Source of the DNA: Chloroflexota bacterium
GTDB taxonomy: Bacteria > Chloroflexota > Anaerolineae > Promineifilales > Promineifilaceae
Length of the DNA stretch: 55,620 nt
Direction of reading: 5' to 3'
Assembly: GCA_018004935.1 (NCBI GenBank)
Contig: JAGNBF010000035.1
Coordinates: forward strand, 9,335-64,954
Under the pieces are notes generated by a model. That model saw nothing but the letters and a program-made list of their open reading frames with translations, made no database searches and was not told the DNA's origin. The translations under genes and the position numbers were made by a program. The stretch's first letter is position 1. Every line of letters begins with the position of its first letter. This document shows positions 1 through 41,553 of the stretch, piece by piece.

Positions 1-1690
1 TGGCGGGACGGGCATGGCACGATTGGCAGTCGGTGAGGCCGCTGTGGTTAAAGGTGGCATCCCAATTGTTGGTGGTATGGCAGGTGGAACATTGTCCCTG
101 GTAATGGTTGGCGGGACGGGCATGGCAGGATTGGCAGTCGGTGAGGCCGCTGTGGTTAAAGGTGGCATCCCAATTGTTGGTGGTATGGCAGGTGGAACAT
201 TGCCCCTGGTAATGGTTGGCGGGGCGGGCATGGCAGGATTGGCAGTCGGTGAGGCCGCTGTGGTTAAAGGTGGCATCGGCCCAGTTGGTGGTGTTGTGGC
301 AGGTGGAACATTGCCCCTGGTAATGGTTGGCGGGGCGGGCATGGCAGGATTGGCAGTCGGTGAGGCCGCTGTGATTAAAGGTGGCATCGGCCCAGTTGGT
401 GGTGTTGTGGCAGGTGGAACATTGCCCCTGGTAATGGTTGGCAGGACGGGCATGGCAGGATTGGCAGTCGGTGAGGCCGCTGTGGTTAAAGGTGACATCG
501 GCCCAGTTAGTGGTGTTGTGGCAAGTAGAGCATTGTCCGGCAAAATGGTTGGCTGGTTTGTTGTTGAGGTGGCAGGATTGGCAATCCGTGAAGCCGTTGT
601 GGTTAAAGGTGGCTTGTGCCCAGTCTACCGTGTTATGGCAGGCGGAACATTGACCGGCGAAATGGTTGATCGGTTTGTCGGGGGCGTGGCAGGATTGGCA
701 GTCAGCGAAGCCGGTATGGTTGAAGGTGACAATGGCCCAGTCGTCAGTGTTGAGGTGACAGGAAGCGCATTCACCCTCGTAATGGTCTACGGGTTTATCT
801 TCCAGGTGACAGGATGTACATTGACTTACGCCTTGATGGTTGAAGGTTGCACTGAGCCAGTCATTGGTGTTGGTGTGGCAGGCGACACATTCACCTTCGA
901 AGTGATCTATGGGTTTATCTTCTATGTGGCAAGAGGTGCATTCAGTAACGCCAATGTGGTTGAACTGGTAGGGTTCCCAACTGGTGGTGTTGTGACATTC
1001 GGTGCAGTCACCGGGAAAATGTTCGGGTGGTGGTGCTTCGTGGCAACTTTCACATTCGGTGGGGGTATTTTCGTATTGGTTGTTGCTATGACAGGATTGG
1101 CACTCAACGAGTTCGTGGCCGCCTGTGAGGGGGTAGAAGTTGTGGTCTATGTCTTGGTTGAGGAAGGGGATGCCCACAGGGCCAATGGCGGATGCCCCAT
1201 TGTTGCCGGTAATCTGGGCGATGGTGGCCGTGTCACCGGCTAACAGGAGGGTTATCTGTTGGCTGAGGGCGGCGATTTCTGGGTGTTGGCGTAGGTTTAG
1301 GGGGAGATTAGCCAATGCCGTTTGGGCGTTGAGGAGAAGTTCCTGTAAGCGGCCGCTGAGTCGTACTTGATCGGCTGGGTCAGCATGGGGGATCGCCCGG
1401 AGGGCCTGTTCTAAGGCGGTGTAGATGGCGGTCGCGGCCGCGAGCTGGTGTACTTCATCTTCCACTGCAAGAAGATCCTCTATGCGCCGTTGCACCAGAT
1501 CAAGCAGGCGGTCGGCTCGCCGGGTGGAATCACCGATAAAGCGCACGTGGATTTGTTCAGCCCATTGTTGCCAGGGGTACTGGGTATCACCGGGAACAAA
1601 GGGGTGGGTTTCGGCCAAAAAGATGATACTGCCGGTGAGGACAACAAAAGCGATGATACCTAATGTGAGAAGAACCAGTAAACGGCGCAT
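1..1690 (-). CDS. Giant tandem-repeat multihaem c-type cytochrome, C-terminus beyond window
   Basis: The reading frame starts at ATG 1690 after a GGAAAG Shine-Dalgarno and is still open at base 1. The protein begins with one membrane segment or uncleaved signal (residues about 4-25, MRRLLVLLTLGIIAFVVL). A region of about 165 residues without haems follows, and then repeats of about 36 residues, each with two CxxCH haem sites. Typical motifs are CSTCH, CQSCH and FNHSGLTDC. I count 20 CxxCH sites before the window edge. It is probably a membrane-anchored, extracytoplasmic electron conduit. The repeat pattern resembles cytochrome c3/c7-type chains. It sits downstream of a 12-haem cytochrome gene on the same strand, so joint expression is likely. 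Full length and haem total are unknown. Confidence 0.9.
   Translation of the reverse strand, partial: MRRLLVLLTLGIIAFVVLTGSIIFLAETHPFVPGDTQYPWQQWAEQIHVRFIGDSTRRADRLLDLVQRRIEDLLAVEDEVHQLAAATAIYTALEQALRAIPHADPADQVRLSGRLQELLLNAQTALANLPLNLRQHPEIAALSQQITLLLAGDTATIAQITGNNGASAIGPVGIPFLNQDIDHNFYPLTGGHELVECQSCHSNNQYENTPTECESCHEAPPPEHFPGDCTECHNTTSWEPYQFNHIGVTECTSCHIEDKPIDHFEGECVACHTNTNDWLSATFNHQGVSQCTSCHLEDKPVDHYEGECASCHLNTDDWAIVTFNHTGFADCQSCHAPDKPINHFAGQCSACHNTVDWAQATFNHNGFTDCQSCHLNNKPANHFAGQCSTCHNTTNWADVTFNHSGLTDCQSCHARPANHYQGQCSTCHNTTNWADATFNHSGLTDCQSCHARPANHYQGQCSTCHNTTNWADATFNHSGLTDCQSCHARPANHYQGQCSTCHTTNNWDATFNHSGLTDCQSCHARPANHYQGQCSTCHTTNNWDATFNHSGLTDCQSCHARPA
11..560 (-). repeat. Near-identical 108/111-bp tandem repeats in the cytochrome gene
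   Basis: Successive units start near 11, 119, 227, 338 and 449, giving spacings of 108, 108, 111 and 111 bases (36 or 37 codons). Each encodes one two-haem module. DNA identity between neighbours is very high here and decays toward the 5' part of the gene (higher coordinates). This suggests recent unit duplication near the middle or 3' end and a repeat number that could vary between strains. Confidence 0.9.
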
Positions 1691-1939
1691 GATAACTTTC
1701 CAGGAATTAGATTGCTTGATGTAATTGTTATAGATGTGGTGGTACGGGCGACCCTTGTGGTTATTAGGTGTTACGGTTATCTGTGGGTAAAAGGGTAGAC
1801 ACAAAGCTGGTCCGTATTACCAATCATTTTCTGAAAATCTATAGAGTTAAGTCGTAGGTAGCATAAAAAAGTAACGGCCAGAGTAAGAATTATGGAACCC
1901 ACGCCAGAATCTCATCCCGAAGCATAATTGGGGGCGGTT

Positions 1940-2392
1940 TTATTGCCAGCCCAAAAGCAGGGTGAGGATGAGCATAATAATGACGGCGGTTATGTGGTAA
2001 TAGGAGGTATGTGCTTGCCTGAAAGAGGCAGGGGTAGACATACTGGTTATTTGAGGGGGGAGGGGTGACAGTTCGCGGCCGCAACCGGGGCAAGATGAGG
2101 CTCCGGGCAGGCACTCCATTTCACAGGTAGGGCAGTCAAAACAGTCTTCTAGAGTTACCGGGGCGGTTATTTCGGCCAGGGGGGTGGGCGGGATGGCAAC
2201 TTTCTGGCTGATGAAAAAGGCCAGGGATACCAGGAGTACCCCGGTGACGGTGATGAAGATGGGGGTAGAAAGGATGGATGCGGCCGCGGTTAGCCCCAGC
2301 GCCATGATCCCCATTACCAGAATACGCCCATATCCATCCACCTTCTGTATGGCCCACTGTTTGGGTGCGGTCACTGACAGGTTAATCATCAT
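1940..2392 (-). CDS. Small membrane protein with zinc-ribbon motif
   Basis: The 150-residue protein has two hydrophobic segments (about 22-38 and 42-62), then a four-cysteine cluster containing CFDCPTCEMEC and CPGCGREL that looks like a zinc ribbon, and a last hydrophobic segment at the C-terminus. The start at 2392 is chosen because it overlaps the stop codon of the upstream 12-haem cytochrome gene (stop at 2382). This is the usual sign of translational coupling. The frame stays open upstream of this point, but that part only shadows the cytochrome gene. Function is not recognised. Position between two multihaem genes suggests a role in assembling or anchoring that system; this is inference. 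Confidence 0.7.
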   Translation of the reverse strand: MMINLSVTAPKQWAIQKVDGYGRILVMGIMALGLTAAASILSTPIFITVTGVLLVSLAFFISQKVAIPPTPLAEITAPVTLEDCFDCPTCEMECLPGASSCPGCGRELSPLPPQITSMSTPASFRQAHTSYYHITAVIIMLILTLLLGWQ

Positions 2393-3428
2393 CGTTATCT
2401 CCTTCCCGCCCTTCGGCTTCATCTTCCTGGCCTGTGGGGTGGCATTCGACACAATCTGCATAATCGGTGATACCTTCTTCGACATGCACTTCGCGCATTT
2501 CCTCGGCGGGATGGGCGTGGCAATTGGTGCAGGTGTAGGTAACATAATTTTGGTTGTGGCAGGTCTCACAGGGAATTTCTCCTTCTTCGCCATGATCCAG
2601 GGGGAAGGAGTGAGCCAGGAGTTGCGCTGGTGCCCAGGCGGTGGTGCTGTGGCAAAGTTCGCATTGTAAGCCAAATTGCCCGGCATGGATGGCCGGTTCT
2701 TCATGGCAATTGGCACAAGTGCGGGGGGTTGTCTCAAATTGTTGGTTGACATGGCAACTTTTGCAGGTGGTTGCTTCATGTGCCCCATCCAAGACAAAAA
2801 TCAGGTTGTGATCAAAGTCGCGTGTTTCGGCCTGCCCCTGGTGGCATTCCAGGCAAGTGGGGCCGAAAAGGTCTACGTGTTCCACCATGAACGGGGTATC
2901 GGCCTGGGTGTGGCAAGTCTGGCAATCTACGGCTTCGATAGTGTAAACGGCTCCCTTATGACAATCATCGCAGGTCATTTCGCTCCCATCAAAATCTGTC
3001 TGGTGAGTCATCAGGCTGAATTTGGTGAGGCGATCATGATCAAACAGATTGAGAGACATGCGGGTAATTTTGGCGTCGCGCCCGGCATGATCGGTGTGGC
3101 AAGTCTGACAGCGCTGGGCGTCTACCAGATGGCCGTGTAAGCCGTTGCCGGTTTGTCGCTGTTCGGAGATGACGGTGTGACATTGTTCGCACCGGTCGGC
3201 AGTGATGCCCTGCCAGGCGGCATGGCACAAGGTACATTCTTGTTCAAAGGCCGCGTGGGAAGGGAAATCGGCGAGTGGGGTTTGTCGCGGCCGCGCTTCT
3301 GTCAGTGGCCCGGGGTTAAAAGGGATACCACCCCGCAAAAAGAGGATGACGACGAGAAACACAACAAATAAGATGGATGTACCACAACCAAAGCCAGAGA
3401 AAAGGGGGTGAGCGCGTTGAGTGTGCAT
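2382..3428 (-). CDS. 12-haem c-type cytochrome, membrane anchored
   Basis: The 348-residue protein has one N-terminal hydrophobic segment (about 14-33, ILFVVFLVVILFL) and twelve CxxCH motifs: CTLCH, CEQCH, CQTCH, CDDCH, CQTCH, CLECH, CKSCH, CANCH, CELCH, CETCH, CTNCH and CVECH. The tail is very acidic and ends in four Asp/Asn residues. Extra histidines between the motifs could serve as distal haem ligands. It is likely an extracytoplasmic electron carrier and first gene of a minus-strand cluster with the zinc-ribbon protein and the giant repeat cytochrome. I see no strong Shine-Dalgarno before ATG 3428, so the exact start is less sure. Confidence 0.88.
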   Translation of the reverse strand: MHTQRAHPLFSGFGCGTSILFVVFLVVILFLRGGIPFNPGPLTEARPRQTPLADFPSHAAFEQECTLCHAAWQGITADRCEQCHTVISEQRQTGNGLHGHLVDAQRCQTCHTDHAGRDAKITRMSLNLFDHDRLTKFSLMTHQTDFDGSEMTCDDCHKGAVYTIEAVDCQTCHTQADTPFMVEHVDLFGPTCLECHQGQAETRDFDHNLIFVLDGAHEATTCKSCHVNQQFETTPRTCANCHEEPAIHAGQFGLQCELCHSTTAWAPAQLLAHSFPLDHGEEGEIPCETCHNQNYVTYTCTNCHAHPAEEMREVHVEEGITDYADCVECHPTGQEDEAEGREGDNDDD

Positions 3429-3727
3429 AGAATGTTGCTGGTTAGTTAAAGTTTAGGATTTACAGGATTGCTCAAGCTGGTCTCCTGACTGTACTCGCTG
3501 GGCTTTGGTGGGAACACCGACCACAGCACCTAAGTCCTAAGTTTTCATTCCTTTACGTTACTTCTTAGAAGCTATAGTCGGTAGAGGTACAGGAAAAGTT
3601 ATGGGGCTAAAAGAAATGGCGGCGGGGTTCAAAAGTCGGCAGGCAAACGGTGCTTAATGAGCGTCTAAAAATAAGTTGGGTGGTATGGTCTCCTGACCGC
3701 GCCACCTAACTTAATCTCGAGCAAACC
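3429..3727. repeat. Intergenic repeats with hairpin-family copies
   Basis: No gene is visible. Two copies of the GGTCTCCTGAC hairpin element occur, one near 3478-3500 and a better one at 3676-3732 ending in a degenerate CAAACCCTA terminus. The remainder is unassigned. Confidence 0.6.
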
Positions 3728-4681
3728 CTACATCTTACGCTGATCTTCACCTTGGCCCATACGGAGCATGAGGCGCAGGCGTGACCAGAGGCGTTTGCGG
3801 ATGATGAGACGCGGCCGCCACAAAACCCCTTTGAAGGCTCGCCACAGATGCCAAAAATAGGTAGTTCGGGTGAGAGAGTGGGGTGCAGTGGCTATTTCGG
3901 GGGTATAGCCGAGTTGGTTCATGGCGGTGAAACAATACCCCTCTATCTGGCGGATTTCGTCGGGGGTGAGACTGTGCCGCCATTTGTGCAGGGATGCCGG
4001 TTGCGGGGGATGAGCCGCCAGAATCGCGGCCGCGGCCTGTTCCAGACCCGGCTGAATGAAGTGAAGAATGGTTTGCAGGGTGGGGAGTGGCTCCTGAACT
4101 AATGTTTCATAGACAACAGGCAGAACCCGGTTGCCCAGGCTGGTGGTTAGTTGCTGGCTAAGGGTCAGGTGGGTATGCCAATAACCTGCTACCAGTTCGG
4201 GCGTAGTTTGCCACATGATTTTTTGGGAAGCGGCCACGGCCCGTGGATCGCGGTAAAGCAGAATGAGACGAGCTTCTGGCCAAACGGGGTTAAGCCAGTT
4301 CATGTACTCGGCCCGGATGAGTTTGTCGCCCCAAAGGGGTTTTTGGGGATAGGCGAGGGTGTAAACGTGGTGGATCCAGGTGGCATAAGGCACGCGGCCG
4401 CACCACAATTCGTATAGTTCTGATTGGTGGCGGCGTAGAGTGGCGATAAGGGCCATATTGCGGATATTTTCAGCTTCGGCTGTTACCAATTCGTCCAGGA
4501 AGCGGTTGAAACGGGGCAGGGTGGTTTGAGTGGGTAGAGCTTCGTAGAGGGCCAGCCCTTCTTTGAGCATTCGGGATTCATAGGTGAGGTGAATGGGCGC
4601 GGCCGCGTTGAGGAGCGTGAGCAGGTACGTTGTGCCGCTTCGGGCCATACCACATAGGAAGAGAGGCGAAGAGGAGGTCAT
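3728..4681 (-). CDS. Sulfotransferase family protein
   Basis: The 317-residue protein has the PAPS-binding features of cytosolic-type sulfotransferases. A 5'-phosphosulfate loop near the start reads FLCGMARSGTTYLL, and a 3'-phosphate region reads LILLYRDPRAVAASQ (about residues 155-170). It would move sulfate from PAPS to a hydroxyl or amine; the acceptor is unknown. The frame is open for 45 more codons upstream, but that part is made of heptamer repeats and a hairpin, so I place the start at ATG 4681 just before the conserved loop. There is no strong Shine-Dalgarno. A HIP octamer occurs five times in or near the gene. Confidence 0.8.
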   Translation of the reverse strand: MTSSSPLFLCGMARSGTTYLLTLLNAAAPIHLTYESRMLKEGLALYEALPTQTTLPRFNRFLDELVTAEAENIRNMALIATLRRHQSELYELWCGRVPYATWIHHVYTLAYPQKPLWGDKLIRAEYMNWLNPVWPEARLILLYRDPRAVAASQKIMWQTTPELVAGYWHTHLTLSQQLTTSLGNRVLPVVYETLVQEPLPTLQTILHFIQPGLEQAAAAILAAHPPQPASLHKWRHSLTPDEIRQIEGYCFTAMNQLGYTPEIATAPHSLTRTTYFWHLWRAFKGVLWRPRLIIRKRLWSRLRLMLRMGQGEDQRKM

Positions 4682-4683
4682 AA

Positions 4684-4832
4684 GGGAATGGTGAATGGTG
4701 AATGGTGAATGGTGAGTCCACTGAAAAAAGGTCAAAACAGTTAAAAGCCCGGTTTCTTTTTCTCTGGAAGCGACGGTTAAATGAGTCAGAAACCGGGCTT
4801 TTTGCAGTAGACTCAATAGTGAGTGGTGAATG
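4684..4832. repeat. Heptamer repeat plus long inverted repeat upstream of the sulfotransferase
   Basis: Four tandem units of GAATGGT lie at about 4686-4714, next to the sulfotransferase start. At 4740-4803 the sequence AAAAGCCCGGTTTCT pairs with AGAAACCGGGCTTTTT, forming a long-loop hairpin ending in a T run. It could terminate purC transcription (purC reads toward it). Related AAACC(C/A)GGTTT repeats occur at 14198-14237 and 42077-42137. Confidence 0.65.
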
Positions 4833-4834
4833 AT

Positions 4835-5791
4835 TTATTGCCTACTATGGCTTAACGCCTGACGAATACGTGCGGCCGCGGGCTGTTCTCCAGGTGTAAA
4901 TTTCGTGCCGGTCAGCCGCTCATAGGCTGAAATATACCGGGCCGCAACCTGGGCAATGAACTCGTGGGGCATAGTGGGCGGTGTCCCGTCGCCCCGGTAG
5001 CCCTGAGCGGCGTACCACTTACGCAAAAACTCCTTGTCGAAGTTTTCTGGCTCCTCCCCACCAGGCTGATAGGTGTTGGCGATCCAGTAACGGCTGGAAT
5101 CGGGGGTGTGAATTTCGTCAATGAGGGTGAGTTGGCCGTTGATGAGGCCCATTTCGTATTTGGTGTCTACCAGGATGAGGCCAGCCTGCCGGGCGATGTG
5201 TTGACCACGGAGAAAAAGGGCGATTGCGGCCGCGTGTACCTGTGCCCACAATTCTTCACTCATCAGACCACGCTCTAAAATTTCCGCTTCCGTCAGCCGT
5301 TCATCGTGCCCCCCTTTTTCGGCTTTTGTGGTGGGGGTGATGATAGGGTAGGGGAGGGAGTCGTTTTTGTGCAGACCATCGGGCAGGGAAATGCCGTAGG
5401 GTTGGCGGTCGCCCTGGTTGTAGAGATACCAGAGAGATGTTTTAGTCACCCCAGTGATGTAACCCCGAACGACGATTTCTACGGGCAGGGGCGCGGCCGC
5501 GGCCGCGATTGTCACGTTTGGATCAGGTACACCAAGCACATGGTTCGCCAGAATGTCTTTGGTTTGTTCAAACCACCAGGCACTCAACTGGTTGAGCACC
5601 TGCCCTTTGTACGGGATCAGCCCTAACACCCGGTCAAAAGCGGAGATACGATCCGTCGTGATGAGGATGTATTGATCCCCCTGCCGGTAAATATCCCGTA
5701 CCTTGCCTTCCATTTTCTCGCCCAATCCGGGCACATCCACACCACTAAGGGCTGTGGGAATCGCTTGTAATAGTTCGTCGTGGGTTAGCAT
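4835..5791 (-). CDS. purC: Phosphoribosylaminoimidazole-succinocarboxamide synthase
   Basis: SAICAR synthase joins aspartate to CAIR using ATP in purine synthesis. The 318-residue length fits the longer bacterial/eukaryotic-type PurC. Recognisable blocks are EGKVRDIY near the start, TTDRISAFD, VVRGYITG, LVDTKYEMG and IDEIHTPDSSRYW. A run of five alanines at about residues 96-100 is encoded by two overlapping GCGGCCGC octamers. It stands alone here; the other purine gene in the window, purL, is 8 kb away on the same strand. The start is ATG 5791 with GAGAAGG-like sequence upstream. Confidence 0.95.
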   Translation of the reverse strand: MLTHDELLQAIPTALSGVDVPGLGEKMEGKVRDIYRQGDQYILITTDRISAFDRVLGLIPYKGQVLNQLSAWWFEQTKDILANHVLGVPDPNVTIAAAAAPLPVEIVVRGYITGVTKTSLWYLYNQGDRQPYGISLPDGLHKNDSLPYPIITPTTKAEKGGHDERLTEAEILERGLMSEELWAQVHAAAIALFLRGQHIARQAGLILVDTKYEMGLINGQLTLIDEIHTPDSSRYWIANTYQPGGEEPENFDKEFLRKWYAAQGYRGDGTPPTMPHEFIAQVAARYISAYERLTGTKFTPGEQPAAARIRQALSHSRQ

Positions 5792-35347: not shown

Positions 35348-37600
35348 TTATTCTGCGGCCGCGGGGACAACCGGGCGGGTCATGGTACTGGTGTCTGCAC
35401 CCAGGTCGGTCAAACCGTCATACAGGAGTTGCAAGACATACATACCATTGTGAGCAAACGCACCTGTATCCTTGGTCACATACTGGTAATTGTATGCGGC
35501 CCGGAGTAAGCGCGGTGTCCAGGTGCTGTACCGACCATCGTTGTTGATCTCTTCCGGATCAGCTACACCATTACCATTTGCGTCCGCAAAATAGTAAGGA
35601 TAGGCCGTTGGGGAGTAGAGAATACCGGTGCCGACGGTTTCTGCGGCATAGAGCTGCATGGCGGCATACAACTGCTCTTTCATTGTAGCGATTTCCAGAG
35701 CAATACCTTCTGTCGTGTCTCCGTCACCATCATAGTCAATGGTGTTTTCCTCGAAGCGAATATTCATCAGGTCTGCTTCGGAAGCCACGTTTTCATGGCA
35801 ATCGGCACATTCTTCAACCTGTACTTCCAGGGCATGAGTGTCATGGCATTCGTTACAACTATTAAACGCCCCCACATGCTCATTGCGTCCGAAGTAGGTC
35901 TGACCTTCATATTCATATGCACCCTTTGCTTCTGTACCAAACAGCGTGGCTCCGGCGGCAAAGTAGTGGATGTTTAGGAAGCGTAACGATTCAGACACTT
36001 CATCGTCCGGCAGTTCACCGATCAGGCGGTTGACGCTGGCGGTAGATTCCCGACCCTGATGACAGGAGATACACAGATTGCTGTCCAGATCATCTTCGGG
36101 GTTTGTCAGCTTGGCTCCGCTGGGGAAGGGCACGGTTGCTACTTCATAGCGGGTGAAGGTGGTCAGGTCATTGTGGCAGGTGGCACAGTTCAAACCGCCG
36201 GAAGCGGGTTGATTAATGGCGACGCCCTGCGTCACAAAGAGGGGCAGACCAGCGGCAGAGTGACAACGACTACACGTGCCGGGCACAACGCCACCATCTT
36301 CTTCACCATCCCAATGACGGAACGCTTCTTCGGAAGCCGCAAAGTGGCCGCGATCCAGACGGTTGGCATTGGTGATGTCAACCGGGGTGGTCATACCGGC
36401 ATTCAGGTTTTCGATAGAATCGTACAGTAATTGGATGATGTATTTGCCACCGTGCGCAAACCGACCGGGGTCCTTGAGGGAAACCTGGTAGTTGTACGCC
36501 GCTTTGGCCAGGCGAGGTGTCCAGGTATTGAACTGGTTGTCGCCGTTGACTTCGGCTTCATCGGTTACGCCATCGCCGTTGGTGTCCAGGAAGAAGTAGG
36601 GGTAAGCATGTTCATCATAAACAATACCCGCCCCGGTCGCTTCAGTGGCATAGGCTTGCATTGCCTGATAAAGCATGTCACGCAGACCTTCGATTTCAAA
36701 GAAAATTCCTTCTTCCATGTCACCATCGCCATCATAATCAACCAGGGAGCCAACCATGCGGATGTCTACCAAATCTTCGGCGTCTTCCACGCCTTCATGG
36801 CAGACAACACATTCGTCAAGTTGGACTTCCAGGGTATGAGGATCATGACAATCCACACAGGCATTGTACGGTTCAACATGGTCGAAACGAGCATCGTAGG
36901 CGTTGCCAGGATATTCGTAGCCGCCCATGACTGAGGTGCCATATTGGGTAGCCGCGGCCGCGAAGTAGTGAATATTGGTAAAGCCCAGATCTTCACTTAC
37001 TACGTCTTCGTCCGCTTCTGTGAGGCCAGCATTGACGATGGAGTCATTAACCTGCACTGTGGATGCCCGTCCCTGATGGCACTGAATACAGCGTGCTTCT
37101 GGCCCTAACCCGGTGAGTGTGGCTCCAGAGGGGAATACCGCACTATCCAGGTGTGAGGCCGCTTCGTTGTGACAGGCCACACATTCAACGGTTGAGCCAA
37201 TGGGTGCGGCCGCGTTCACAACACCAGCTTCACTGCCATCGGCTCCCAGGAAATCCTGGAAACCGGGTGTGCTATGGCATTTCGCGCACCGGTCCGGCAC
37301 TTCAGCCGGGTCTTCTTCATTCCAATGCACAAACGCTTCTGCGCTGGCATCAGCATGAGCTGAGGATGCCCACTGCTCTTCATACGGTACAGAAGGTCCC
37401 GCTGGTACTTCTGGCGCAACCTCCACAACCCGGGTAACTTCGACCGTTTCCGTAATCGTTTCGCCCGGAACTTCCACTTCCACTTCCACAACTCGAGTCA
37501 CTTCTACTGTTTCTGGTTCCTGTGAACAGGCTACTAAAGCCCATGAAAACAATAGAAGCAACCCCCCTAGCAAATAGGGCTTTATTCTCAGACGCTTCAT
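35348..37600 (-). CDS. Decahaem c-type cytochrome lipoprotein with internal duplication
   Basis: The 750-residue protein has a lipoprotein signal (lipobox LVAC, Cys25) and a Glu/Val-rich spacer (EVEVEVPGE), then two homologous halves (about 70-420 and 420-740). Each half has five CxxCH sites: CAKCH, CVACH, CIQCH, CVDCH, CVVCH and CSRCH, CATCH, CISCH, CNECH, CADCH. Each half also holds DYDGDGD and an EF-hand-like loop (DTNGDGVTDEAE, DANGNGVADPEE) that may bind calcium. It is the last gene of an operon with a cytochrome b and two other multihaem proteins. GGAGG precedes the ATG. A cell-surface electron-transfer end point is inferred. Confidence 0.92.
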   Translation of the reverse strand: MKRLRIKPYLLGGLLLLFSWALVACSQEPETVEVTRVVEVEVEVPGETITETVEVTRVVEVAPEVPAGPSVPYEEQWASSAHADASAEAFVHWNEEDPAEVPDRCAKCHSTPGFQDFLGADGSEAGVVNAAAPIGSTVECVACHNEAASHLDSAVFPSGATLTGLGPEARCIQCHQGRASTVQVNDSIVNAGLTEADEDVVSEDLGFTNIHYFAAAATQYGTSVMGGYEYPGNAYDARFDHVEPYNACVDCHDPHTLEVQLDECVVCHEGVEDAEDLVDIRMVGSLVDYDGDGDMEEGIFFEIEGLRDMLYQAMQAYATEATGAGIVYDEHAYPYFFLDTNGDGVTDEAEVNGDNQFNTWTPRLAKAAYNYQVSLKDPGRFAHGGKYIIQLLYDSIENLNAGMTTPVDITNANRLDRGHFAASEEAFRHWDGEEDGGVVPGTCSRCHSAAGLPLFVTQGVAINQPASGGLNCATCHNDLTTFTRYEVATVPFPSGAKLTNPEDDLDSNLCISCHQGRESTASVNRLIGELPDDEVSESLRFLNIHYFAAGATLFGTEAKGAYEYEGQTYFGRNEHVGAFNSCNECHDTHALEVQVEECADCHENVASEADLMNIRFEENTIDYDGDGDTTEGIALEIATMKEQLYAAMQLYAAETVGTGILYSPTAYPYYFADANGNGVADPEEINNDGRYSTWTPRLLRAAYNYQYVTKDTGAFAHNGMYVLQLLYDGLTDLGADTSTMTRPVVPAAAE

Positions 37601-37682
37601 TATTTTCCTCCATACTTATCGGGATTAGTCAAAACCATAGATATCGTTCGGTCCGATAAATGCAATTTTTTGAACGATGGCG

Positions 37683-38552
37683 CTATGGGACTAAGGTTCC
37701 CGCTGGGACAAAAATTTCACGTGTTACCCGAGGAACTGTAGTAATAGCCGTCTCTTCAAATGTAATAGCCCAAATCACAACAGCTACCACCACGAGGCTC
37801 ACAATAACAGTGGCCACAATAAAAACGCGTAAGCGTTTTTGTAAAACGGGAAGTTCCAATTCAGGCCAGGGTCGTTCTCCCGCTTCCAGCCGCTCCAATT
37901 CCAGGGCATGTTCTTCTTCCATCTGGTGGCGAGGGAGATTGCCGGTAAACATACTGGGATTAAAATGTTTAATATGTACGTTGTACATGTGCCAGAGAAT
38001 GATCGCCAGCACCGCCAGTAGGGCTTCACCCCCGTGAGCCGCTTTGGCCGCTGGAATAAGTTGGCCGGGAAATACTGATGAAAAAGCGATAGGGTTCCAC
38101 ATGATAAACCCGGTAATCGCCATAACGAGTGTTCCCCAAATGACGGCCCAGTATTCAAATTTCTCCCCAAAATTAAATTTCCGCATTTTAGGATGCGATT
38201 CGCTCCATCCCAGGTTATACCGAATTGTGTCCAGCATATCCTGCAAATCTTTTTTGTCGGGAATCATTTGCATCCATTCATGTTTCACGAAGAAACGATA
38301 TGCGGAGGTCAAGAGATGGTAGACGGAGCCAAAAACCAGAATAACGGCCGCTACGCGATGAATTAAGCGTGTCTGCTCAATACCACCCATGACGTTAATC
38401 ATCCATTCACCGACAGCAATGGCGGCATATTTTTGGGCCAATCCGGTTATTCCCAAAATGGTGAACGAGGTCATCAAGATAAAGTGCTCGATGCGTGCAC
38501 CCAGGCGAAAGCGTGGATAGACTTTTGCGGGTTGGGGCATTGTTTTTTCCAT
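37683..38552 (-). CDS. Membrane cytochrome b (cyt b561 / formate dehydrogenase gamma type)
   Basis: The 289-residue protein has four or five membrane segments with histidines that could bind two b haems: RIEHFILM, IHRVAAVILVFGSVYHLL and HGGEALLAVLAIILWHMYNVHIKH, split here as HGGEALLAVLA and HMYNVHIKH. A further membrane anchor lies near the C-terminus (about 245-270). Such subunits oxidise quinols and pass electrons to attached c-type cytochromes. ATG 38552 follows AAGGGGAAAT, eight bases after the stop of the 14-haem gene, so the genes are coupled. A frame open further upstream only shadows that gene. Confidence 0.9.
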   Translation of the reverse strand: MEKTMPQPAKVYPRFRLGARIEHFILMTSFTILGITGLAQKYAAIAVGEWMINVMGGIEQTRLIHRVAAVILVFGSVYHLLTSAYRFFVKHEWMQMIPDKKDLQDMLDTIRYNLGWSESHPKMRKFNFGEKFEYWAVIWGTLVMAITGFIMWNPIAFSSVFPGQLIPAAKAAHGGEALLAVLAIILWHMYNVHIKHFNPSMFTGNLPRHQMEEEHALELERLEAGERPWPELELPVLQKRLRVFIVATVIVSLVVVAVVIWAITFEETAITTVPRVTREIFVPAGTLVP

Positions 38553-38560
38553 ATTTCCCC

Positions 38561-40201
38561 TTAACGACGGCGAATGACACGCCGATAAATATCTGTCAGT
38601 ACCAGGAAGCCAAAGAAAGCCAGCGTGCCGGGAATGACAAGCCAATAGAAACTGTTGACCATGTAGACCAGGCTGTTGTTTTGCAAGGATGGCCGGAAAT
38701 GGCTTGTCCAGGCGTTGGGGAAGTTTTCTGAGGCGTCAGGATGACATTGCTGGCAGGTAACTAAGAGGTTGTTTTTAATGCCTGCGTCAGGGTCATCAGG
38801 TTCTTTGATGTTGTGTACACCGTGGCAGTCATAACAGACTGCTTTATTGGTTTCGACGGTGGGGTCTTGGTGTTCAAAGAGGGTGACGGTGGTGCCATGA
38901 AAATCAGAGACGTAAGTGGTGAACACATCGGTACTGATTTCGTATTTGTTCATTAACTCGTTGTCGGCGTGACAACTGGCACATAGTTCAGGAGAGCGGA
39001 CGCGGAATTGGGCGGTAGTGGGGTCGTTGATGTTATGAACACCATGACAGTTAATGCAGGTGGGTACGTCTTCGTTACCTTCACTGATGAGGGCCTCACC
39101 GTGGACGCTGGCGGCATATTCATCAAAGATAGTGCTATGACATTGGCGACAAGTTTGGGAAATACGTTCACGCGGTTCAGCGGGTGGGGGGGTATCATGT
39201 GCCCCATGGCAGTCGGTGCACATAGCGGCTTCCAGTTTGCCTTCTTCTAACGCGGCCGCATGGACACTGTCTTGGGCTTGATCGTATTTGGGTTGATGAC
39301 ATTCCCCACAGGCCGGATATTTTTCTAGACTATAGGCACGCAGATTCTCGGCCGTGATGGGTTCATGGGGGAAGCGGTAATCCTCATGACAATCTACACA
39401 GTCCAGAGGTTGCCATTCGTTGCCTTCACCATGCACGGAGTGAGCCAGTGTGTCAGCCGTAACGGTGAGGTCTAATATTTCCTCGCTGGGTAGGGTGAGG
39501 GCCAGATTTTCCAGACTATGGCAGGAGGCACAGTAGGTGTTGGTGGGGGCCGTGGTGGTGAATAACCCGTTTTGGATGACCTGGATTAATTCAGCGCGGC
39601 CGCGGACGCCTACCTCATTGCTTTCATGGCAAGCTACGCAGGTTTCCACCCCTATTCCTTCAGACCATGTCTCTTTGGCCTGTACATTATGAGCCGAATG
39701 GCAAGATACACAATTAGCTACAGGATCACCCTCAATGCCCTCATGGCTGGTAAGGTGTGTATCCTGATGACAGCGTTCACAGGTGGCCTGGGCTTGGGTT
39801 AGTTGATAAGAAAGCAGATCCGGGGCTTCTACCGGTTGATGAGGGTATTGGTATTGGTTTGGGGCGTGGCAAGAAGTACAGGCCAGATCGGCATCGCTGT
39901 GTTGACTATGGACAGATGTGTCTAGTTCAGCCAGGTTGATCTGTACTGATAAAGTTTCTCCAGAGGGAAACGTGATGACGCTGGTGGTCTCACTATGACA
40001 GAGGCGGCAGGCCGTGTCATCACTCGTTTGGGTGGTGTTCTCGGCCTGACCGGTTGATGTATAAAGGGTAAGTGGATCTGATTGGTTCGCGGCCGCGGCA
40101 TTGGGCACGTCAGCCAACATAAACCATACCAGCCCTGACAGAATACAGAAGGCGGGAATGAGTAAACCCAGGCGTAAGGGATGGTGATTTCCGTCAGACA
40201 C
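38561..40201 (-). CDS. 14-haem c-type cytochrome with two membrane anchors
   Basis: The start is GTG 40201, placed five bases after a strong GGAGG; an upstream open frame overlaps the preceding gene and is rejected. The 546-residue protein has an N-terminal hydrophobic segment (LLIPAFCILSGLVWFML), fourteen CxxCH sites and a C-terminal membrane segment (LVIPGTLAFFGFLVL) ending in arginines. Repeated CxxCHGVHN motifs and many separate histidines fit bis-histidine haems. The adjacent cytochrome b gene suggests a quinol-oxidising complex in which this protein receives the electrons on the outer face. Confidence 0.92.
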   Translation of the reverse strand: MSDGNHHPLRLGLLIPAFCILSGLVWFMLADVPNAAAANQSDPLTLYTSTGQAENTTQTSDDTACRLCHSETTSVITFPSGETLSVQINLAELDTSVHSQHSDADLACTSCHAPNQYQYPHQPVEAPDLLSYQLTQAQATCERCHQDTHLTSHEGIEGDPVANCVSCHSAHNVQAKETWSEGIGVETCVACHESNEVGVRGRAELIQVIQNGLFTTTAPTNTYCASCHSLENLALTLPSEEILDLTVTADTLAHSVHGEGNEWQPLDCVDCHEDYRFPHEPITAENLRAYSLEKYPACGECHQPKYDQAQDSVHAAALEEGKLEAAMCTDCHGAHDTPPPAEPRERISQTCRQCHSTIFDEYAASVHGEALISEGNEDVPTCINCHGVHNINDPTTAQFRVRSPELCASCHADNELMNKYEISTDVFTTYVSDFHGTTVTLFEHQDPTVETNKAVCYDCHGVHNIKEPDDPDAGIKNNLLVTCQQCHPDASENFPNAWTSHFRPSLQNNSLVYMVNSFYWLVIPGTLAFFGFLVLTDIYRRVIRRR

Positions 40202-40211
40202 CTTCTCCTCC

Positions 40212-41498
40212 TTAAGGTGTTGGCGTGGCTGTTGCGTCCGCCGTCGGTTCGGGTTCAGCCGTTGCCAGAGGCGGGGTAGCATGGTAGTTGATCGCTGTCT
40301 GGAGTAGTTCTTCATCCGTTTTGGGGAAGCCCAACCCATCCGGGCGATGGCAGGTGCGGCAGGCGTAATCCAATGATATTTGGGACAATGCGACCGTACC
40401 GTCTTCATTAAATTGACCTACTTGTGTGGGGTCAATGGCTACCATGTGGGTGCGAATATCACCGGTGAAAGTGGCGGGATCACCAACCGCACTACTAATT
40501 AGCTGAGGCATGTGACACTGCACACATTCAATTGTGAGAGACAGGTGTACTTCGTTATTTTGGTTTTCAGCCTGTTTAAAGTGACAATTTTCGCAGGTGG
40601 TGCGGGTGGTGGGTTGATTGGCTTCCCGGAGTTGCACGACACCGGCATGAGGATCGTGGCACACGACGCAATCAATGACGACGTGTTTGCTTTGGAAAAG
40701 CTCTTCATATTGTTCGTGATGTTGAATGAAACCGTTAGCGGCGTTGACTTCGGTGAACTCACCCCGCACATGACATTCTCCACACGCGGCCGCATCCCGT
40801 TCTATTTCCATGTTATAAGCCAGAGGGTGGTTAGCGTGTAAACTCCCAGGACCATGACACTCTTCACACTGTACACCAGCAAATGCCCATGTACCCACAA
40901 TGCCCGGCATTTCATCCTGGTGGCCCCGAGGGCTATAACCAGTGGTATGACAGGCACCGCAATCATAGGATAAGTTTGCCTCACCTGCGTGATAACCAAC
41001 CCAGTCGGCGTTCGTATTCAATTCTTCGTTGGCCAGGTTGTACTGGGTCGTTGCATTTTCATCGGCACCGGTGATGATATAGCCCTGCAAATCCATAAAA
41101 CGGGCTTTCCAATTGTAGCCACCAATGACGTAGCTAATTTGATCCCAGGAGTAACCATCCGGTGGGGATGGTACTTCACTGAATGGGTAGTCAGGGGGTT
41201 CCCCATTCACTACCTGGTTGAGTTTCCAGGGATGACCACTCTGCATGAAGACGTTGTATAGGTCTTCATGACATTCAGCGCAGGTTTCACTGCCCACAAA
41301 AGCGGGGAGTTCGTAACTGACACCATCTTGACCTGAAGCACCTGGAGCACCGGTTTCACCAGGAACGCCATCAGGGCCGGGTGGCCCTTGCTCACCTTGG
41401 GGACCCGCTGGTCCTATTGGCCCCGGTTGTTCGATACAGGCTGTGAGAAAAAGGATGGCCGTAACAAAGGCCACTATAGTCATGATAGTTCGCCGCAT
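40212..41498 (-). CDS. Octahaem cytochrome lipoprotein with collagen-like segment
   Basis: The 428-residue protein has lipobox LTAC (Cys about 21) and then eleven Gly-X-Y triplets (GPIGPAGPQGEQGPPGPDG and more). A cytochrome region follows with eight CxxCH sites: CAECH, CGACH, CEECH, CGECH, CVVCH, CENCH, CVQCH and CRTCH. The C-terminus is a Thr/Pro/Ala-rich tail. The start at ATG 41498 follows GGAGGG by eight bases. It is the first gene of the operon, and its stop lies ten bases before the GTG of the 14-haem gene. The collagen-like part may form a trimeric stalk lifting the haem domain off the membrane; this is inference. Confidence 0.92.
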   Translation of the reverse strand: MRRTIMTIVAFVTAILFLTACIEQPGPIGPAGPQGEQGPPGPDGVPGETGAPGASGQDGVSYELPAFVGSETCAECHEDLYNVFMQSGHPWKLNQVVNGEPPDYPFSEVPSPPDGYSWDQISYVIGGYNWKARFMDLQGYIITGADENATTQYNLANEELNTNADWVGYHAGEANLSYDCGACHTTGYSPRGHQDEMPGIVGTWAFAGVQCEECHGPGSLHANHPLAYNMEIERDAAACGECHVRGEFTEVNAANGFIQHHEQYEELFQSKHVVIDCVVCHDPHAGVVQLREANQPTTRTTCENCHFKQAENQNNEVHLSLTIECVQCHMPQLISSAVGDPATFTGDIRTHMVAIDPTQVGQFNEDGTVALSQISLDYACRTCHRPDGLGFPKTDEELLQTAINYHATPPLATAEPEPTADATATPTP

Positions 41499-41553
41499 GA
41501 GCGCTACCCTCCAATGAACTTCTATCAATGCACGGGTGACAACGAGTGACGCA

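Follow-up and report, generated by a model that had tools for sequence, protein, structure and literature searches.

A membrane-anchored multihaem array as the probable outward arm of a porin-less, PCC3-like electron-transfer cassette in one-membrane Anaerolineae

Analysis of a 55,620-nucleotide stretch from a member of the Chloroflexota (Anaerolineae, Promineifilaceae; genome of 7.98 Mb in 229 contigs), hereafter the window (positions 9335-64954 of contig JAGNBF010000035.1, abbreviated C172), identified at its very start a gene encoding a long tandem array of two-haem modules. The features of this protein and its conserved gene neighborhood suggest that the membrane-anchored multihaem array is probably the outward arm of a five-part, porin-less, PCC3-like electron-transfer cassette of the one-membrane Anaerolineae. 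An NAD(P)H-type FAD oxidoreductase and a 2[4Fe-4S] ferredoxin inside the cell, and/or quinol, would exchange electrons with a membrane dihaem cytochrome b, which would pass them to a 12-haem cytochrome. The latter would relay them to the array, which could conduct them across the cell wall to a mineral or partner outside the cell. The redox partners, direction of flow, surface exposure and location, and stacking of the haems in this scheme are what we infer from gene content, motifs, module structure, repeat homogenisation and cassette conservation.

The N-terminal part of the array gene lies on the minus strand at 1..1690 of the window, with an ATG at 1690 and a frame that stays open to window base 2 over 563 codons, its product beginning with MRRLLVLL... 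(MRRLLVLLTLGIIAFVVLTG). It contains 20 CxxCH motifs, whereas 1000 trials with shuffled residues averaged 0.23 and yielded at most 3, and Tandem Repeats Finder recovered 6.6 copies of a 111-bp unit at positions 1-741. Plus-strand ORFs across the array (up to 413 aa) are antisense to the repeat and were rejected as unsupported. The window edge can be ruled out as a natural end of the gene, as it is the border of an assembly gap of 100 N at C172:9235-9334, immediately preceding the window start. The last 66 bases before this gap are identical to the first 66 after it, which is what an assembly broken by a repeat should give. Beyond the gap the same reading frame pattern continues on the minus strand through 10 more CxxCH motifs to a TAA at C172:8669-8671, the protein ending in ...CSQCHDTNDWDD. 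Thus, the earlier note, which had proposed a tandem-repeat multihaem cytochrome with at least 20 haems on the basis of the two-haem modules before the edge, was borne out, and no premature stop or frameshift of the kind it had flagged was found beyond the gap, the gap bases excepted. A minimal join at the 66-bp overlap keeps the frame and yields a protein of 729 aa with 29 CxxCH motifs (3 followed by 13 modules of 2), the haem number of the array being 29 + 2n, where n is set by the gap and 29 is a lower bound.

The protein is typified by a predicted membrane-spanning N-terminal helix (residues 1-28; 1607..1690, minus strand), which is also present in the AlphaFold model (helix 2-28, pLDDT 75-91), followed by a helical haem-free domain (residues 32-161; 1208..1597, minus strand; modeled helices at 39-161). 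The start of this domain is DUF5667-like, with a match to PF18915 that is below the cut-off (E=0.0017) and a stronger one in a relative (L057, E=9.8e-8). In the closest relative, a 23-haem protein of 'Anaerolineae bacterium isolate CH7' (L040/L074), the helical domain that separates the anchor from the haems is largely absent, and hence seems dispensable. C-terminal to it are the first three haem sites (residues 183-242; 965..1144, minus strand), which are c7/c3-like according to the motif count and Pfam profiles of the whole protein. The remainder of the minimal join comprises 13 modules with the pattern F(N/S)H-CxxCH-H-CxxCH-W, each with exactly two CxxCH motifs and four His. Modules 1-4 (491..964, minus strand) are diverged and, like module 13, 39-40 aa long, whereas modules 5-12, of which 5-8 and part of 9 lie in the window (2..490, minus strand), are 36-37 aa long. 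The haem region has 29 CxxCH motifs and exactly 29 other His, so that two His ligands are possible for each haem with none to spare, and residue counting thus indicates that the array cytochrome is probably all-bis-histidine.

Sequence profile analysis recovered hits above the gathering cut-off to the Cytochrom_CIII (PF02085; 43.7 vs 22.9 bits) and Cytochrome_C7 (PF14522; 41.5 vs 24.8 bits) families. The nanowire_3heme model (TIGR04257, threshold >40 bits) had no match in the array at E<=1, in contrast to 66.5 for a Novosphingobium array (L075), and a phmmer search against the PDB recovered only weak matches, to small multihaem proteins. The AlphaFold model of the haem domain is of low confidence (pLDDT 57.6, pTM 0.29). 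The counts of CxxCH motifs and His, the hydrophobic N-terminal helix and the presence in the genome of cytochrome c assembly genes (PF01578) together characterize the predicted product as a multihaem c-type cytochrome.

The distinctive feature of the array is its packing density. At its tightest, over 10 haems, it uses 18.0 residues per haem, and 18.6 across its whole length, which is the lowest value among about 85 multihaem proteins measured. Anaerolineae arrays of the compact type fall at 18-20 residues per haem; the remaining proteins of the set, among them the 12-haem partner and the arrays from Proteobacteria and Bacteroidota, need about 21 or more. These figures are CxxCH-to-CxxCH spans and are like-for-like only within the set of about 85 proteins, so that comparison with whole proteins is approximate: the whole minimal array protein (729 aa) has 25 residues per haem, whole PCC3 proteins 22-39 (PMC5566968), and Burkholderiales proteins 22.4-23.4 (PMC7399161). 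Confinement of the compact module to a single family was discarded, as a class-wide search found compact arrays beyond it.

Array-related sequence is present in 25 of the 52 genomes of the family, and the family arrays that were read have 12 to 42 haems; elsewhere in the class, another family reaches 44. When named genomes were scanned with a two-member array alignment, related arrays were recovered from Proteobacteria, Nitrospira, Bacteroidota, Calditrichota and Acidobacteriota, with haem counts reaching 67 and 79. Published cytochromes reach 112 motifs in Paludibaculum (PMC11495043) and 113 haems in Ca. Methanoperedens (PMC7082337), and the suggestion that the protein in the window could be among the longer haem wires is thus not supported. 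A frame with 79 CxxCH motifs and a three-haem repeat in a Candidatus Solibacter MAG (L085:3170-9214; 2015 aa, start not set) has as neighbors a gene with 23 CxxCH motifs and a cytochrome b of the PCC3 type. Haem arrays repeatedly meet contig ends or gaps (L054, L055, L072, L073, L166, L167, L168 and the gap bordering the window), which implies that short-read haem counts are probably lower bounds.

Comparison of the modules at the DNA level provides considerable clues regarding the history of the array. Modules 5-9 are 93-99% identical to each other as against 60-80% to the earlier modules. Across the minimal join, modules 5-10 share 90-99% identity and modules 11 and 12 96%, while modules 1-4 and 13 share 52-80% with all others. 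Neighboring young modules differ silently at 1-4 codons and by 0-2 amino acids. This central near-identity with mostly silent changes indicates that the middle of the array is youngest and that each module has been kept intact by selection. Three other genera possess the same array, each with a private central sequence: central modules match their own siblings at 0.95-0.99 (0.96-0.99 for modules 5-12 of the array analyzed here) and those of other genera at no more than 0.81, whereas module 13 is closer to the last module of another genus (0.72) than to its own siblings (0.65). The pattern is apparently one of repeated lineage-specific expansion or homogenisation between fixed end modules, and the separate central homogenisation in the other genera supports expansion by duplication. 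The contention of the earlier note that the units toward the edge are almost identical and those nearer the start diverged is thus upheld, as is growth of the array by tandem duplication, given the near-identical central modules, their silent differences, the species-specific homogenisation and the positionally conserved last module. Array length would shift by whole two-haem modules, most simply via unequal exchange in mid-array.

It is quite possible, even if not the account we favor, that this expansion is neutral, with slippage or unequal crossing-over altering module number, and thereby length, without adaptive effect. The youngest copies lie centrally with old ones flanking them, which any tandem array would show, and related arrays vary widely in haem count (12-44). 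However, the mostly silent changes between young modules point to purifying selection on each module, both CxxCH motifs being kept in 13 of 13. Such selection argues for a function of the module and not for module number; neutral expansion bears on the cause of length variation and does not conflict with the array being an electron conduit.

The conserved cassette comprises the 12-haem cytochrome, the haem array, the dihaem cytochrome b, the ferredoxin and the FAD oxidoreductase. The 12-haem cytochrome (2382..3428, minus strand), which possesses an N-terminal membrane helix, is the upstream partner of the array, and the pair is conserved in relatives. Between the two cytochrome genes a reading frame (1940..2392, minus strand; start not certain) encodes a small protein, probably of the membrane, that has a zinc-ribbon-like CxxC...CxxC segment. 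Downstream of the array, outside the window, are genes for a 269-aa membrane protein (C172:7223-8032) that its motifs identify as the putative dihaem cytochrome b, a 114-aa ferredoxin with two 4Fe-4S clusters (C172:6869-7213), a small Haem_bd protein (C172:6230-6715) and a 476-aa FAD/NAD(P) oxidoreductase of the ferredoxin/NAD reductase group (C172:4553-5983). Genes for the cytochrome b, a c9/c12/c18 cytochrome, the FeS and FAD proteins and the array occur together in many of the family's genomes, as well as in further families of the class. More distant Chloroflexota have a shorter cassette of FeS, FAD and cytochrome b genes with one or two cytochromes of 13-30 haems, and the compact array hence looks like an addition in Anaerolineae.

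The cassette is set among purine genes, with a purC-like gene upstream and purE- and purK-like genes downstream (L003 (C172) 239-4516; window 4835-5791), these names being given from sequence rather than from a family search. A second multihaem cluster occurs at 35348-41528 of the window on the minus strand, and encodes an 8-CxxCH lipoprotein-like protein, a 14-CxxCH protein with a C-terminal membrane helix, a membrane protein resembling cytochrome b (37683-38645) and a 10-CxxCH protein that is internally repeated two-fold. In addition, 7-bp tandem repeats with related units (GAATGGT, TGGTGAA, ATGGTGA, AATGGTG) form several short arrays, scattered through the window at 4686, 13528, 13992, 14999, 16777 and 16819.

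The 269-aa membrane protein has no Pfam family, and a fold search with its model recovered no match below E 0.001; its identity as a cytochrome b hence rests on motifs. These are WLSFH-13-H at 72, SGFLG at 112 and WHTAH-13-H at 240, which correspond to the SGXXG and two WX3HX13H motifs of the PCC3 inner-membrane protein, itself a predicted dihaem cytochrome b (He et al. 2017, PMC5566968). The two WX3HX13H motifs and SGXXG are present in 23 of 23 cytochrome b sequences checked, including that beside the array; homologs occur beside arrays across the family and class, with about 23-32% identity in other phyla. No beta-barrel porin was recognized on inspection of the ORFs of C172:1-14500, and the cassette is hence described as PCC3-like rather than as a PCC3. 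Omp85 had no match in the genome as against matches in 7 of 14 control genomes, so that nothing points to an outer membrane in need of a porin, which fits a predicted one-membrane envelope.

The same set of proteins may support electron flow in either direction. Import by the cassette from Fe(II), a partner cell or a cathode, feeding the FAD/FeS pair to reduce NAD(P), appears unlikely as its function. PCC3 is found in a few Fe(II) oxidizers, for which the published model runs inward from an external donor (PMC5566968), and the affiliation of the FAD protein with the ferredoxin/NAD reductase group would also suit uptake. Nevertheless, the iron oxidizers with PCC3 are few, the direction in them is unproven, and Ardenticatena maritima, a filamentous Chloroflexota isolate, gives current in both directions. 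A distinctly unlikely reading is that the array is a charge store, i.e. a haem capacitor in the cell wall space whose length sets capacity rather than reach. Charge storage is a possible role compatible with the many haems: numerous equivalent haems in near-identical modules would share similar potentials, and such a role has been suggested for very large cytochromes (PMC11495043, PMC7399161). However, the array is constantly paired in many genomes with a cytochrome b of the inner membrane and another multihaem cytochrome, an arrangement that resembles a directed chain, and storage and conduction are in any case not mutually exclusive. Finally, it is very improbable that the near-identical copies or their number are an assembly artefact, a worry the earlier note had raised on which the bordering gap with its overlapping flanks and the stopping of four other arrays (L054, L055, L072, L073) at contig edges might bear, as the copies carry distinct SNPs and differ in length (36 or 37 aa), and other assemblies hold uninterrupted arrays of near-identical modules with 23-44 haems.

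Electron export in walled bacteria that lack an outer membrane is poorly understood. If the array is indeed the outward arm of such a cassette, its parts in Anaerolineae can be named: a cytochrome b of the quinone type, a cytochrome acting as relay, and a haem arm that can be extended. The repeats also constitute a natural experiment, as the haem chain gains or loses whole modules with the rest similar, making conduction versus length directly measurable, and the 36-residue module offers a small repetitive unit for designed haem wires. More tentatively, and with considerable doubt, the array might define a distinct haem-wire architecture, in which a compact, self-ligated, 36-residue two-haem module tiles at 18 residues per haem on a membrane anchor. 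It would then form a length-adjustable, porin-less counterpart of PCC3 spanning the one-membrane Anaerolineae wall, with a module number that evolves fast enough to differ between strains.

Long haem chains are already known; it is the compact, porin-less version that is little described. In known cytochrome filaments the haem rise is roughly 0.7-0.8 nm per haem, and 29 haems stacked at such a rise would span about 20 nm. The OmcS, OmcE and OmcZ filaments are polymers of small multihaem subunits, whereas the array is one long polypeptide. What they share is the idea of a haem chain that moves electrons over distance (see also PMC9473688). The class III cytochrome c and c7 proteins (PF02085, PF14522) share with it the CxxCH motifs, distal His and short repeats, but the unit of the array has two haems per 36-40 residues and is repeated at least 13 times. 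The giant cytochromes of Ca. Methanoperedens (PMC7082337) and Paludibaculum (PMC11495043) likewise carry very many CxxCH motifs in one protein, but have far more haems and other hosts, and that of Ca. Methanoperedens is, unlike the array, an S-layer fusion (PMC7082337). Also comparable are the large cytochromes of Anaerolineales and Burkholderiales (PMC7399161, Figs 4-5), whose haem number similarly differs between relatives. The sections of that paper considered here report that the number varies, mainly by pairs or multiples, between close relatives within the Chloroflexi and Burkholderiales, and term this variation little explored; the cassette, the cytochrome b link for Chloroflexota and the module-level homogenisation go beyond the description in those sections. 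The cassette further resembles PCC3 (PMC5566968), which also pairs a motif-bearing inner-membrane protein with two large multihaem cytochromes, of which the larger is repetitive and very rich in haems. However, PCC3 has a porin, where the array cassette has none that was recognized, and the PCC3 median of 21 (PMC5566968) exceeds the 12 haems of the smaller cassette cytochrome. The cassette also adds FeS and FAD genes, and its array is membrane-anchored and, in an approximate comparison, more compact, at about 18 residues per haem as against about 23 in PCC3.
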